Below, piece after piece: positions 36,656-45,582 of a DNA stretch of 64,000 nt. The translations under genes were made by a program, and so were the position numbers. The notes under the pieces were generated by a model. It made no database searches, was not told where the DNA came from, and was given only the letters and a program-made list of their open reading frames with translations. Positions within the stretch are counted from its first letter, which is position 1; each line of letters begins with the position of its first letter. Source of the DNA: Pararhodobacter sp. (GTDB lineage Bacteria > Pseudomonadota > Alphaproteobacteria > Rhodobacterales > Rhodobacteraceae); contig JAFIEK010000009.1 in the NCBI GenBank assembly GCA_020832545.1, positions 1-64,000 of the forward strand, written 5' to 3'.

Positions 36656-37606
36656 CTACTGGCCGAGCGCGCGGACCATCATCGCACGATCGACATTGCC
36701 GCCGGTCGCCACCGCGATGACCGCATCGCCTGTCTGTGGCAGGAACAACGCCGCCGCCAGCGCCACCGCGCCGCCCGGCTCCAACACCAGTTTCAGCCGG
36801 TCATGGGCCAGTGCCATGGCTTTCAGCGCCTGCTCCTCGCTGACAACCGCACCGGGGCCGCACAGCCGCCGGAGGATCGGCCAGGTCAGGTCACCCGGCT
36901 GCGGGGTGATGATTGCATCGCAGATCGAGCCTGACAGGCTGGCATTGCGCTGCACGGTGCCGCTGGCGAGCGAACGCGCGACATCGTCAAACCCCTCGGG
37001 CTCGGCGGGTCGCACACGCAGGCCCGGCGCGCGGGCCTCCAGCGCCAGCGCGATGCCCGAGGTCAGGCCGCCGCCGCCGCAGCAGACCAGGACATCGGCC
37101 TCGTGCACCCCTTCGTCCGCCGCCTGTTCGGCGATCTCCAGACCGCAGGTGCCCTGCCCGGCGATCACCTCGGGCATGTCAAAAGGCTTGATCAGTGTCA
37201 GACCGCGCTCAGCGGCAAGGCGTGCGCCCAGCGCATCCCGGTCTTCGGTCGCGCGGTCATAGAGCACCACCTCGGCCCCCAGATCACGGGTGTTGGCAAT
37301 CTTGATAGCCGGGGCATCGCTGGGCATGATGATCACCGCACTGATCCCCTTGATCCGCGCTGCAAGCGCCACCCCCTGCGCGTGATTGCCCGATGAGAAC
37401 GCGATCACGCCTGCCGGTTCCAGAGCCGAGACCGCATTCCATGCCCCGCGAAACTTGAACGAGCCGGTATGTTGCAGGCATTCGGCCTTGACCAGCACCC
37501 GCCGCCCGGCGAGATCATCAAGAAACGGCGACGACAGCATCGGCGTGCGCCGCGCATGCCCCTTGAGCCGCGCGGCAGCGGCATCGATCATGGTGATGTC
37601 GGTCAT
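36656..37606 (-). CDS. Threonine/serine dehydratase-like PLP enzyme
   Basis: Fold-type II pyridoxal-phosphate enzyme of 316 aa. The PLP lysine is in QHTGSFKFRGAWNA, the substrate loop is FSSGNHAQGVALAA, and the phosphate-binding loop is VCCGGGGLTSGIALA. The C-terminal serine/threonine position lies in VIAVATGGNVDRA. There is no ACT regulatory domain, so it is the short catabolic type: threonine ammonia-lyase, serine racemase or 3-hydroxyaspartate ammonia-lyase are all possible. Its ATG overlaps the stop of the alpha/beta hydrolase by 4 bp. Confidence 0.87.
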   Translation of the reverse strand: MTDITMIDAAAARLKGHARRTPMLSSPFLDDLAGRRVLVKAECLQHTGSFKFRGAWNAVSALEPAGVIAFSSGNHAQGVALAARIKGISAVIIMPSDAPAIKIANTRDLGAEVVLYDRATEDRDALGARLAAERGLTLIKPFDMPEVIAGQGTCGLEIAEQAADEGVHEADVLVCCGGGGLTSGIALALEARAPGLRVRPAEPEGFDDVARSLASGTVQRNASLSGSICDAIITPQPGDLTWPILRRLCGPGAVVSEEQALKAMALAHDRLKLVLEPGGAVALAAALFLPQTGDAVIAVATGGNVDRAMMVRALGQ

Positions 37607-38424
37607 ATCAGCAGCCCCAGAAAACGGTTGATCGCGCGCAGCGCCTCGGGCTCGTCCAGAAACGGAATATGGCCACGGTCCGGCACCTCTTCGTAGATCA
37701 TGGCCGGGCAGCGGCTGGCCATCTCATCAGCGGTGGTCTGGGTCAGGAGGTCGGAATTGGCCCCCCGGATCAGTGCAAGCGGCCGGGCGCAGGCGGCATC
37801 GAACAAGGGCCACAGATCACCGTTTTGCGCCTTCATGCCGTCCAGAAATGCCGTGCGCAAGGCCGGATCATAGTTGATGTCCAGCCCCTGATCGGTCTCG
37901 ATGAAATGTTTGCGCGCTTCTTCCATCCAGCGGCTGGGGGGGACATCCGCAAAGCCCTCGGCGGTATGTTCCAACGCCACGGCGGCGGCGGCATGGGTGC
38001 GCGCGGCGGGGCGGCGGCCTAAGTAGTCCTGAATGCGCTCCAGCGCCAGTGGCTCCAATACCGGGCCCACATCATTGAGGATCACGCCGCGCAGCCGGTC
38101 CGGCGCGGTGGCCGACAGGAAAAGCGCGATCATCCCGCCGCGTGACGTGCCCAGTATTGCCGCACTTTCAAGGTGCAGATGGTCCAGAAGCGCCAGCGCA
38201 TCGGCGGCTTCCTGCGGCACGGTATAGCTGTCTGCCCCCGTCCAGTCCGAACGCCCGCGCCCGCGATAATCCATTCGAATCAGTCGCAAGGGGGGCAGAT
38301 GCGGGGCGAGATAGTCAAAATCGGTGCTGTTGCGCGTCAGGCCCGCAAGGCACAGAAGCGGGATGCCGTGACCCTCGTCGGTATAGAAAAGCGATGCGCC
38401 GTCAGCGGCGGTGAAATGCGGCAT
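37603..38424 (-). CDS. Alpha/beta hydrolase
   Basis: Soluble alpha/beta-hydrolase-fold enzyme of 273 aa. The oxyanion region is PLLCLAGLTRNSTDF, the nucleophile elbow is ILGTSRGGMIALF (Ser in GTSRGG), and the acid and His lie near IRGANSDLLT and VPDRGHIPFLDEPEAL. The substrate is unknown. AAAGG lies before the ATG. It is the first gene of a three-gene unit with the dehydratase and the DUF167 protein, and divergent from the gnnA-like gene. Confidence 0.87.
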   Translation of the reverse strand: MPHFTAADGASLFYTDEGHGIPLLCLAGLTRNSTDFDYLAPHLPPLRLIRMDYRGRGRSDWTGADSYTVPQEAADALALLDHLHLESAAILGTSRGGMIALFLSATAPDRLRGVILNDVGPVLEPLALERIQDYLGRRPAARTHAAAAVALEHTAEGFADVPPSRWMEEARKHFIETDQGLDINYDPALRTAFLDGMKAQNGDLWPLFDAACARPLALIRGANSDLLTQTTADEMASRCPAMIYEEVPDRGHIPFLDEPEALRAINRFLGLLI

Positions 38425-41610: not shown

Positions 41611-42228
41611 TCAGCGCAGCGGCAAACCGCCCTCGCGTACCAGAAAATCGACAATCGCATCGATCCCGTCGCCGTGGCGCAACCGCGCCATCACGTAGGG
41701 CCGTGCCCCGCGCGCGTGTGCCGTGTCACTTTCCAGCAGTGCCAGATCAACGCCGACATGCGGCGCAAGGTCAGTCTTGTTGACCACCAGCAGATCCGAT
41801 TTCACCACCCCCGGCCCGCGCTTGCGCGGAATGTCCTGCCCGGCGGCGGTGTCGATCACATAGAGTGTCAGGTCGGCCAGTTCGGGCGAAAAGGTCGCGG
41901 CCAGATTGTCGCCGCCGGATTCGATTAATATGAGGTCGAGATCAGGAAAGGCGCTGCGCAATTCGGCCACGGCGGCGAGGTTGATCGAGGCATCCTCGCG
42001 GATCGCAGTATGCGGGCAGCCGCCGGTCTCAACCCCGCGGATGCGGTCCGCAGGCAAGACCTGCGCGCGCATCAGATACTCGGCATCCTCGCGGGTGTAG
42101 ATGTCATTGGTGATCACCGCCATCGAGCAGCGATGCGCAAGGGCGCGGGCCAGATGCTCGGTCAGCGTGGTCTTGCCCACGCCCACCGGGCCGCCGATGC
42201 CCACGCGCAGGGGTCCGGTATTTGTCAT
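41611..42228 (-). CDS. ureG: Urease accessory GTPase UreG
   Basis: SIMIBI-class GTPase that powers nickel insertion into urease. The 205 aa show the P-loop [17 protein letters not shown], the metal-binding [15 protein letters not shown] (CPH motif), [35 protein letters not shown] and the guanine motif [11 protein letters not shown]. It is the last gene of ureE-ureF-ureG and starts with a 4-bp overlap on ureF. Its stop is 3 bp from the convergent lpxA-like stop, leaving no room for a terminator between them. Confidence 0.97.
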
Positions 42229-42857
42229 GTTCGAAACAGCCTTACGTCCTTGGTTTCATGGCGGATCGCCGCCAGATCGGCGGCAAGGGTGCTGCCGGCC
42301 AGTGCATCCAGCGTGCTGCGCGCAGTGCGGGTGGCGATGTCAGCAATAATCGGCGCAAGCCGCGCCAGCACGCCCTGCCCCGCCGTCTGGCCCAGCGGCA
42401 CATGCCGCACGGCGATGGTGACAAGATTGGCGGTGAAGCCTTGAACGAACAGCGCAACCACCTGTTCAGGGGGCAGACCAAGGGGCGCAGCGGCCTCACC
42501 CACAGCCACTGGCAGCGCGCGCGCAGGCAGGTTGCGCCCGCTCACCGCAGCGACCGTGCGGGCGAATGCCGCGCCCTGTTCCAGCGTTTCCTGCAACCGC
42601 TCGGCCCCCGGCTGAAGGGCGCGGGCCGTGGCGTCGAGCGCGTCAAGGTCTGCACCCGGGTTCAGCGCCTGCACCAGCAACACCGCATCCTGCCAGCCCG
42701 CGCCATAGCGCAGCACATCGGCCAACCACAGCTCCAACGAAGGGGCATCGGTGACAACGCCATCATGAATCACCTGCTCCAACCCGTGGGAATAGGCGAA
42801 CGCCCCGGTCGGAAAGCCGGGTGACAGCCATTGCGTGAGGGTCAGAAGCGGGGTCAT
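42225..42857 (-). CDS. ureF: Urease accessory protein UreF
   Basis: Scaffold that couples UreG to the urease-UreD complex during nickel loading. The 210-aa helical protein begins [20 protein letters not shown] followed by HGLE, the UreF signature, and continues with a mostly helical, alanine-rich body. It is directly abutted by ureE (stop and start adjacent) and overlaps ureG. Confidence 0.94.
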
Positions 42858-43349
42858 TCAGGGGTGAGCGTGTTTGTGGTCATGACCATGATCATGCCCC
42901 ATCGTGCGGCCATGGCCATAGGCCCCGCCCTCGGGCGTGAAGGGGGCGGTTGCCGGTGCGACCTGCGCGCCTAAGCGACGCAGCATGCTTTCCAGCACAT
43001 GATCGGCGCGGATCACCAGATGGTCATCACCGATCTGACAGGGCGTGTGGCGGTTGCCGATATGCCAGGCCAGCCGCGCCAGATCCCCGCGCACCACCAG
43101 AACCGCCTCGGCCGCGGCGCGCACGGCTATGGTGCGCCCGTCATCCAGCGCGAAAGCGTCGCCATCACCCAGGCTGACGGTTTCCGGCAGATCGACCAGA
43201 AAGCTCTCGCCCCCTTGAGCGCGCAACCGTTTGCGGCGCAGAAAGCGGCTTTCATAGTCCAGCAGCACAGTATCGGCGGCCACTGACCAGCTTCCCGCCG
43301 GGTGGATGGCGATGGCGGTGGCCGTGGCAGTTGTGGTGGTGGTGCTCAT
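42858..43349 (-). CDS. ureE: Urease accessory protein UreE (nickel metallochaperone)
   Basis: Nickel carrier delivering Ni2+ to UreG/urease. From ATG 43349 (AAAGGAG upstream; the track start at 43370 lies in the terminator) it has 163 aa. An N-terminal peptide-binding domain (LLDYESRFLRRKRLRAQ) is followed by a metal-binding domain with AWHIGNRHTPCQI (conserved His of the dimer-interface Ni site) and a His-rich tail GHDHGHDHKHAHP. The N-terminus has an odd Thr/Ala-rich tract (STTTTTATATAIAIH). Confidence 0.93.
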   Translation of the reverse strand: MSTTTTTATATAIAIHPAGSWSVAADTVLLDYESRFLRRKRLRAQGGESFLVDLPETVSLGDGDAFALDDGRTIAVRAAAEAVLVVRGDLARLAWHIGNRHTPCQIGDDHLVIRADHVLESMLRRLGAQVAPATAPFTPEGGAYGHGRTMGHDHGHDHKHAHP

Positions 43350-43369: not shown

Positions 43370-43413
43370 CAAAAACAAAAGCCCGCCCGGCAGCCAGATG
43401 CTGCCGGACGGGC
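43370..43413 (-). terminator. Rho-independent terminator after the DUF1127 gene
   Basis: GCCCGtCCGGCAG / CTGCCGGgCGGGC stem (13 bp with one mismatch) and a 7-nt loop, followed on the minus strand by TTTTGTTTTTG. It separates the DUF1127 gene from ureE. Confidence 0.85.
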
Positions 43414-43436
43414 CAGAAAAATGCCGGGCGTGGAGT

Positions 43437-43658
43437 TCAGCAGCCCAGACGGTCGCGGAACACGTAATGCACGATCCGGTCGCGCGAGATGCCGCGTTCC
43501 TCCAGCTGTGCATCGCTCAGCGAATTGAGATATTCGATTTCGACAGTGCGCGAGCGGGCTTCGAGGTAAGCGTTGAAACCTTGCCCGATGTTGGCAAACA
43601 GGCGATCGATCTGTGCACGCAGATCGGGGCCGATCTCGGATTTGGATACATATGCCAT
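43437..43658 (-). CDS. DUF1127 (YjiS-like) small protein within the urease cluster
   Basis: A 73-aa protein from ATG 43658 with AAAGGAAAGGG upstream; the track start at 43700 is upstream of the real signal. The C-terminal DUF1127 motif is YLNSLSDAQLEERGISRDRIV. Small DUF1127 proteins are common in Rhodobacterales. In Rhodobacter some (CcaF1) affect RNA turnover and carry sRNAs in their transcripts. It sits between ureC and ureE but has its own terminator and a hairpin around its ribosome-binding site, so it is probably an independent unit. Confidence 0.85.
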   Translation of the reverse strand: MAYVSKSEIGPDLRAQIDRLFANIGQGFNAYLEARSRTVEIEYLNSLSDAQLEERGISRDRIVHYVFRDRLGC

Positions 43659-43659
43659 T

Positions 43660-43685
43660 GGAAACCCTTTCCTTTGAAGGTTTCC
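43660..43685 (-). promoter_or_regulatory. Hairpin around the DUF1127 ribosome-binding site
   Basis: On the minus strand GGAAACC-TTCAAAGGAAAG-GGTTTCC puts the Shine-Dalgarno AAAGGAAAG in the 12-nt loop and ends one base before the ATG. It could control translation by exposure or protein/sRNA binding. Confidence 0.5.
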
Positions 43686-43839
43686 TCCCATGCCTACCAA
43701 TATAGGGCACTGATGCTGACTTAACTACCCGCAATGCCGCAACGCAGCATTGCGCAAGGGACATGGCTTTGGTGCCCATCGAGCAGGCAGAAAAAGCGGC
43801 ATCTGCGGTGTATTTTATCGCAACTCGCACGAAACCCCC

Positions 43840-45582
43840 TCAATACAGGAAATACCGCTGCGCCAAGGGCAGTTCACTGGCCGGTTCGCAGGTCAGCAAC
43901 ACACCGTCGGCGCGCACCTCATAGGTTTCCGGGTCCACCTCGATCTGCGGTGTGGCGCTGTTGTGCACCATATCGGCCTTGGTGATTCCCCGGCAGCCTT
44001 CTACCGCCAGCGTGTCGCGCGCCAGCCCCAGCTGCGCGCCCACGCCATCGGCCTGCGCACTTGCACTGACGAATGTCACCGCAGAGCGTTCAACCGCCCG
44101 GCCCATCGCGCCGAACATGGGCCGCGAATAGACCGGCTGCGGCGTGGGGATCGAGGCGTTGGGGTCACCCATCTGCGCCAGCACGATGGAGCCGCCCATA
44201 AGCACCATCTCGGGCTTGGCACCAAAGAAGGCAGGCGACCACAGCACCAGATCGGCGCGCTTGCCCTCTGCGATTGAGCCGATATGGCGCGAAATGCCAT
44301 GCACGATGGCCGGGTTGATGGTGTATTTGGCGATGTAGCGTTTGACGCGGGCGTTGTCGTTGTCGCCCTGCTCTTCCGGCAGCCGCCCGCGCTGCACCTT
44401 CATCTTATGCGCGGTCTGCCATGTGCGGGTGATCACCTCGCCCACCCGCCCCATCGCCTGACTGTCCGAGGCCATGACCGAGAACGCGCCCATGTCGTGC
44501 AGAATATCCTCGGCAGCGATGGTTTCCCGCCGGATGCGCGATTCGGCAAAGGCCACATCCTCGGGCACCTTGCGATCAAGGTGGTGGCAGACCATCAGCA
44601 TATCGAGGTGCTCTTCGATGGTGTTGACCGTGTAGGGCATGGTGGGGTTGGTCGACGATGGCAGGATGTTCTGGCTCGATACCACCTTGATGATATCAGG
44701 CGCATGGCCGCCACCCGCGCCCTCGGTGTGAAAGGCGTGGATCGTGCGGCCCTTGATCGCGGCCAGCGTGTTCTCCACAAAGCCGGATTCATTCAGCGTG
44801 TCAGTATGGATCATCACCTGAATATCCATCGCCTCGGCGACGCTCAGGCAGCAGTCGATGGCGGCAGGTGTGGTGCCCCAATCCTCATGCAGCTTCAGCG
44901 CGGCGGCACCGGCGCGCACCTGTTCCTCAAGTGCAGCGGGCAGGCTGGCGTTGCCCTTGCCCGCGAAGGCAAGGTTCATCGGCAGGCTGTCAGTCGCCTG
45001 AAGCATACGCGCAATATGCCACGGACCCGGCGTGCAGGTGGTGGCCAGCGTGCCATGCGCGGGGCCGGTGCCGCCGCCCAGCATGGTGGTCAGGCCCGAA
45101 TGCAGCGCATCCTCGATCTGCTGGGGGCAGATGAAATGGATATGCGCATCGAACCCGCCTGCAGTCAGGATTTTCCCCTCGCCCGCAATGATCTCGGTGC
45201 CGGGGCCGATGATGACATCGACACCCGGTTGGGTATCGGGGTTGCCTGCCTTGCCGATCTTCGCAATCCGCCCGTCACGCAGGCCGACATCGGCCTTGTA
45301 GATGCCGGAGTGATCGACAATCAGCGCATTGGTGATGACCGTGTCCATGGCCCCCTCGGCGCGGGTGATCTGGCTCTGGCCCATGCCATCACGGATCACC
45401 TTGCCGCCGCCGAACTTGACCTCCTCGCCATAGCGCGGTGCATTGCCACCGATGCCCGCGCGCTCAGTGATCAGATCGCGTTCAACCTCGATGATCAGAT
45501 CGGTGTCGCCCAGCCGCAGCCGGTCGCCCGTGGTGGGGCCATACATATCGGCATAGGCAGCGCGGGTGATGGTGTAGGGCAT
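43840..45582 (-). CDS. ureC: Urease alpha subunit
   Basis: Catalytic nickel subunit hydrolysing urea to ammonia and carbamate. The Ni ligands are visible in [14 protein letters not shown], the carbamylated lysine in [25 protein letters not shown] and [12 protein letters not shown]. The flap cysteine is in LMVCHHLD. At 580 aa it is about 11-13 residues longer than Klebsiella UreC, because of an insertion ([13 protein letters not shown]) between the early EVERDL and [11 protein letters not shown] elements. It starts 30 bp after ureB. Confidence 0.97.

Follow-up and report, generated by a model that had tools for sequence, protein, structure and literature searches.

In bacteria, DUF1127 proteins rank with the most abundant of the small proteins. 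Their roles are disputed, with RNA binding and binding to sensor kinases both proposed: CcaF1 from Rhodobacter sphaeroides is reported to bind RNA, and other DUF1127 proteins work through protein contacts (PMC12501420). In Sinorhizobium meliloti, a DUF1127 gene is controlled through its leader, by uORF-dependent transcription attenuation (PMC12218461). We searched the open-licence literature and found no paper in which a DUF1127 gene is tied to either urease or PhaR. Here we describe a small gene from the edge of this family that lies within the urease operon of Pararhodobacter sp. New here are a family-wide cassette, a compensatory leader hairpin, a PhaR-type promoter motif, and the non-conservation of the terminator that follows the gene.

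The small gene and its distribution

The window is the 64,000-nucleotide stretch of the Pararhodobacter genome that we analysed. Its urease genes are all on the minus strand, in the order ureD, ureA, ureJ/hupE, ureB, ureC, a small ORF, ureE, ureF, and ureG (Table 1). The sequence-only reading had placed a 73-aa gene between ureC and ureE, and it is there. For ureE, an alternative GTG start at 43370 would be at the edge of the terminator's U-tract. Antisense to ureC, there is a match to Rfam RF02514, the 5' ureB sRNA of Helicobacter (45109-45396, plus strand; 107.8 bits, far above the gathering score). This is probably conserved coding sequence that was caught by the model, not a real antisense RNA.

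Table 1. Features around the small ORF, in window coordinates.
Feature	Position	Strand	Remarks
ureC	43840..45582	-	upstream neighbor of the ORF; stop at 43840
PhaR-operator-like array	43731..43753	-	GCAATGCtGCGTTGCgGCATTGC; the window copy is degenerate, many relatives have CTGC-N3-GCAG
-10-like box	43699..43706	-	CCTATATT; consensus TGnCCTATnTTG
GGGAGG	43684..43689	-	near-invariant; marks the presumed start of the transcript; adjoins the stem, partly unpaired
Leader hairpin	43660..43685	-	at the ribosome-binding site; stem GGAAACC (43685-43679) / GGUUUCC (43666-43660)
73-aa ORF	43437..43658	-	divergent, DUF1127-related; ATG 43658, stop 43437
Intrinsic terminator	43371..43414	-	follows the ORF and precedes ureE; not conserved among relatives
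ureE	42858..43349	-	probable ATG 43349, with SD AGGAG
ureF and ureG	41611..42857	-	downstream accessory genes

The same reading had labeled the product DUF1127, which holds at the level of profiles but not for the window protein by direct comparison. The protein falls below the Pfam cut-off and has no match to PF06568 even at E <= 1; a search of its own genome for the DUF1127 family misses it, and there is no match in NCBIfam. However, PF06568 matches 10 of 28 members of its family, and the family profile aligns to canonical DUF1127 proteins from the same genus (hhalign, profile-profile; 95%, E = 4e-8). The relatives share a near-invariant C-terminal RDxIVxxVFRD. With a pI of 5.7, the window protein is acidic, unlike the basic, arginine-rich type of DUF1127 protein for which RNA binding has been reported. 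An AlphaFold model has three helices and is confident in its C-terminal part (mean pLDDT 74). Searching the PDB with the predicted structure gave no fold match, and searching it by sequence gave no significant match. Judging by the profiles, the window protein is a divergent branch of DUF1127.

Within the genus, 15 genomes have a match, and the relative sits between ureC and ureE in 11 of them. We also surveyed the Rhodobacteraceae, using one genome for each of 199 genera. ureC is present in 155 genera, and members of the ORF family in 132. In 44 of the 155 urease-bearing genera, the ORF follows ureC on the same strand at a distance of no more than 1 kb, and a limit of 2 kb brings the number to 46 (these counts combine the ureC and ORF tables by hand); Paracoccus, Loktanella, Shimia, Silicimonas, and Alkalilacustris are among these genera. 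About two-thirds of the ORF-bearing genera carry the ORF away from ureC. Several neighborhoods recur outside of urease loci, with neighbors that, by eye from their sequences, we take to be trkH, pyrC, and glycerol kinase. In the relative G004, the ORF is beside orthologs of the window locus's downstream neighbors (37603-38424 and 36656-37606), with no adjoining urease genes, and urease is on a different contig. These arrangements imply that the gene is independent of urease, though it is often kept beside it. The independence that the sequence-only reading had claimed is also seen in the promoter-leader block, which the gene keeps at every location. As judged from these genomes, the ORF and its leader form a cassette that is spread across the Rhodobacteraceae, with the ORF, its place, the leader, and the palindrome conserved together.

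Two genomes have a tandem pair of ORFs directly downstream of ureC (G089:C3:366775-367368 and G153:C9:323533-324201). In G153, there is a leader match ahead of each copy.

The leader hairpin and the promoter

The 7-bp stem of the leader hairpin terminates one base ahead of the ATG. The SD-like AAAGGAAAGG is in the loop and at the edge of the stem, so it was fair to say, from the window's sequence, that the hairpin loops out the Shine-Dalgarno. By itself, the window's hairpin is not significant (z = -0.7, with 41 of 200 shuffles as good). Almost all relatives share its layout, which is TGnCCTATnTTG, then about 17 bp on GGGAGGAAACC, a variable loop, GAGGTTTCC, and the ATG. RNAalifold found no consensus structure in a MAFFT alignment of the leaders, so we relied on counts of named pairs and on permutations instead. 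Of 71 leaders, 57 have arms that pair, and four of the seven named stem pairs show changes on both sides (as counted on the alignment). None of 500 shuffles reached the observed covariation score or the observed percentage of pairing, and permuting the arms between leaders weakened the pairing in 2000 of 2000 trials; kinship among the leaders inflates both kinds of test. The correct register of the stem gives the highest pairing, while a slide of -1 gives a similar covariation score. The stem variants (GGGAACC/GGTTCC, GGAAAAC/GGTTTTCC, and GGACC/GGTCC), together with loops that have unrelated inner stems, are hard to explain without a conserved hairpin. We conclude from the comparison across genomes that the leader hairpin is real.

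The leader is also specific to this gene. A covariance model gave one strong match in each of 14 genomes of the genus, always at the ORF gene, and 58 matches in 55 of the 199 genera, of which all but about five or six are joined to a listed ORF match; as the model was built from family members, these numbers show its specificity, not its sensitivity. It found nothing significant at 32 canonical DUF1127 loci. Rfam has no match at the leader up to E = 5.

The promoters of the family share an array of GC-N3-GC whose position is conserved, roughly 30-47 bp upstream of the -10-like box. The strict palindrome CTGC-N3-GCAG is in 21 of 66 family promoters versus 27 of 11115 background windows (0.24%), and shuffles lead one to expect 0.34 promoters instead of 21. 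Among the 2304 four-base palindromes that we tested (with spacers of 0-8), it is both the most frequent and the most enriched. Many family promoters lack the strict form. The window's promoter fits only the loose consensus (TGCGTTGCG), and because this copy is degenerate, searching its own genome for the strict 17-bp palindrome pattern gave no match.

CTGC-N3-GCAG is the published operator of PhaR from R. sphaeroides (site CTGCNNNGCAG), and the consensus for PhaR from S. meliloti, YGCRNYGCR, fits the promoter array as well (PMC12542648). The window genome carries the strict motif at the phaZ/phaC promoter and, in two copies, ahead of phaP; TGCAATGCA is just ahead of phaR. Also, UreA and UreB of S. 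meliloti are in a PhaR-repressed module (PMC12542648), which independently hints at a link between PHB and urease. From the identity of the palindrome, its presence at the pha promoters of the same genome, and the S. meliloti module, we infer that the cassette is controlled by PhaR. phaR is present in the window genome and in 47 of 48 cassette genomes, but because almost all genomes have this gene, finding it together with the cassette carries no information.

A scan with the sigma-70 consensus gave no usable promoter at the ORF, and we recognized no -35 element there. The -10-like box raised the idea of an RpoH-type promoter, which we rejected: RpoH promoters in R. sphaeroides require a -35 TTG (PMC3441632), and no such element is conserved among the ORF promoters.

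The thioesterase gene beside phaR in the window genome has orthologs that adjoin the ORF in Paracoccus genomes (loci involved: L142:7334-7786, minus strand, and L048, L054, L060, L065, L066, and L070). This neighbor is a loose second tie between the ORF and the pha locus.

The gap before ureE and a model for the cassette

The strong U-tract terminator that had been noticed between the ORF and ureE is borne out. It has a 15-bp stem with 12 G-C pairs and a loop of 5, followed by TTTTGTTTTT, and of the 7 terminator-like sites in 9 kb, no other comes close to it in strength. The 96-nt stretch around it folds at z = -3.8, and 0 of 200 shuffles were equally stable. We looked for terminators between the ORF and ureE at 29 urease loci. 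The window alone has one in this gap; two further matches fall inside the coding sequence of ureE. In Paracoccus, Loktanella, and Shimia, ureE starts just 16-34 nt past the stop of the ORF, so one promoter probably serves both genes, and the ORF's promoter probably feeds ureEFG. In six relatives from the Pararhodobacter group, a gene on the opposite strand lies between the ORF and ureE. (The inserted gene is conserved, with products of about 115-190 amino acids that contain DELAMVRSRI..., and is found in L035, L037, L038, L039, L041, and L058.) So within the window's genus, ureEFG is probably uncoupled from the ORF, by the terminator in the window and by the inserted gene in the six relatives, and most likely has another promoter or relies on readthrough. 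The earlier proposal that ureEFG needs one or the other thus survives for this genus, but elsewhere ureEFG probably depends on the ORF's promoter. And given one terminator in 29 loci and the short gaps in other genera, we do not view the terminator as a general device for tuning the urease genes.

We propose that the ORF and the ~100 bp upstream of it are a self-contained regulatory cassette of the Rhodobacteraceae. PhaR, which is a PHB-sensing repressor, would bind to the array of palindromes that precedes the -10-like box and keep the promoter off until PHB granules titrate PhaR away. The transcript would start near GGGAGG. A short hairpin, whose structure comes from the comparison of leaders, would tie up the spacer and the end of the SD in base pairs right before the AUG, and translation would depend on the opening of this hairpin. 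The product would be a small helical protein related to DUF1127. In several genera, the cassette would head a probable duf-ureEFG transcription unit, and PHB status may increase urease maturation under excess carbon and scarce nitrogen. In the window genome, with its terminator, and in the sister species with the inserted gene, the cassette would be split from ureEFG and would most likely act via its own protein only. We put the probability of this model as a whole (a small-protein cassette, controlled by PHB through PhaR and with a structured leader, that is lodged in the urease operon) at roughly 0.6.

If so, the cassette may link carbon storage to nitrogen use. For this sub-family of DUF1127, the conserved promoter site and the RNA leader suggest PHB, acting through PhaR, as a concrete input and, for some of its members, ureEFG as a concrete output. 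This link is directly testable in cultured Paracoccus or Pararhodobacter. A bolder version is that a new, family-wide cis-regulatory RNA leader and a PhaR-controlled small protein together tie urease maturation and the use of nitrogen in the Rhodobacteraceae to carbon storage as PHB, with either the protein itself or sRNAs of the CCUCCUCCC type perhaps opening the leader. We offer this version tentatively and would bet against it.

Alternative readings and related systems

The window genome has three canonical DUF1127 genes. Downstream of one of these, on contig C80, are eight CCTCCTCCC motifs (G000:C80 around 19139; L002:1700-2050, on the DUF1127 strand). Such motifs are the hallmark of the CcsR/cuckoo sRNA array. 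Four copies are known in R. sphaeroides, so the array in the window genome is longer. Directly downstream of the window gene, there are no repeated CCUCCUCCC hairpins, as compared to eight at L002. The sequence-only reading had linked the window gene to the DUF1127/sRNA system of Rhodobacter (CcaF1), and our results do not support this link: the CCUCCUCCC array follows another DUF1127 gene, and the window protein has a pI of 5.7.

The protein might nevertheless resemble CcaF1 in binding RNA, so as to tune urease RNA along with sRNAs, and might regulate its own gene by binding to the hairpin. The distant homology to DUF1127 and the binding of RNA by CcaF1 (PMC12501420) would fit with this, and the leader is tied almost exclusively to the ORF gene, as an autoregulatory site would be. 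But the acidic protein, the location of the CcsR-like array behind a different DUF1127 gene, the persistence of the cassette without neighboring urease, and the protein contacts used by other DUF1127 proteins (PMC12501420) make this reading unlikely. Or, anti-SD CcsR/cuckoo sRNAs could target the leader, if their CCUCCUCCC loops pair with GGGAGGA in its 5' arm, so that the hairpin opens. No other part of the leader is conserved as well as GGGAGG, which starts outside of the stem, and the window genome does have the eight-copy array. Arrays are also more common in leader-positive than in leader-negative genera (48 of 55 versus 95 of 144; Fisher p = 0.003, with phylogeny uncontrolled). However, such pairing is expected of any SD-like run of purines, and seven leader-positive genomes lack the array pattern, of which three are about 99% complete. 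We think that targeting by these sRNAs is quite improbable.

Finally, the ORF could be a simple stowaway that has no effect on urease: a small stress gene that by chance lies in a gap tolerant of insertions, and whose palindrome is bound by some other factor. This would explain why so many genera have the ORF away from ureC, and another gene, on the opposite strand, did enter the same gap in six relatives. Yet 44 genera retain the order ureC-ORF-ureE, several of them with a short gap before ureE, and of all palindromes, the one in these promoters is the best match to the known PhaR site. A stowaway is a minor possibility, and we prefer the PhaR-controlled cassette.

Among the known systems, CcsR/cuckoo arrays with ccaF1 share with our locus the family Rhodobacteraceae, a DUF1127 gene, and CCUCCUCCC loops that could pair with GGGAGGA in the window's leader; the window genome's array is at another locus. 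The S. meliloti attenuator is likewise a DUF1127 gene with control in the mRNA leader (PMC12218461), but the window's leader is a short hairpin that ends at the start codon, with no U-tract before the ORF. With DUF1127 (PF06568) proteins such as CcaF1, the SDPs of Agrobacterium, and YjiS, the window protein shares its small size, the C-terminal LSDxEL..G..R..I motif, and homology at the level of profiles, whereas it is acidic, below detection by Pfam, has an invariant HVFRD tail, and lacks a downstream sRNA array. As compared to the PhaR regulon of alpha-proteobacteria (phaP, phaZ, and mmgR; PMC12542648), for which the literature that we searched reports no DUF1127 member, the window's site is degenerate and putative. 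What the cassette and that regulon have in common is CTGC-N3-GCAG or YGCRNYGCR upstream of the core promoter, which is also the arrangement at the pha promoters of the window genome.
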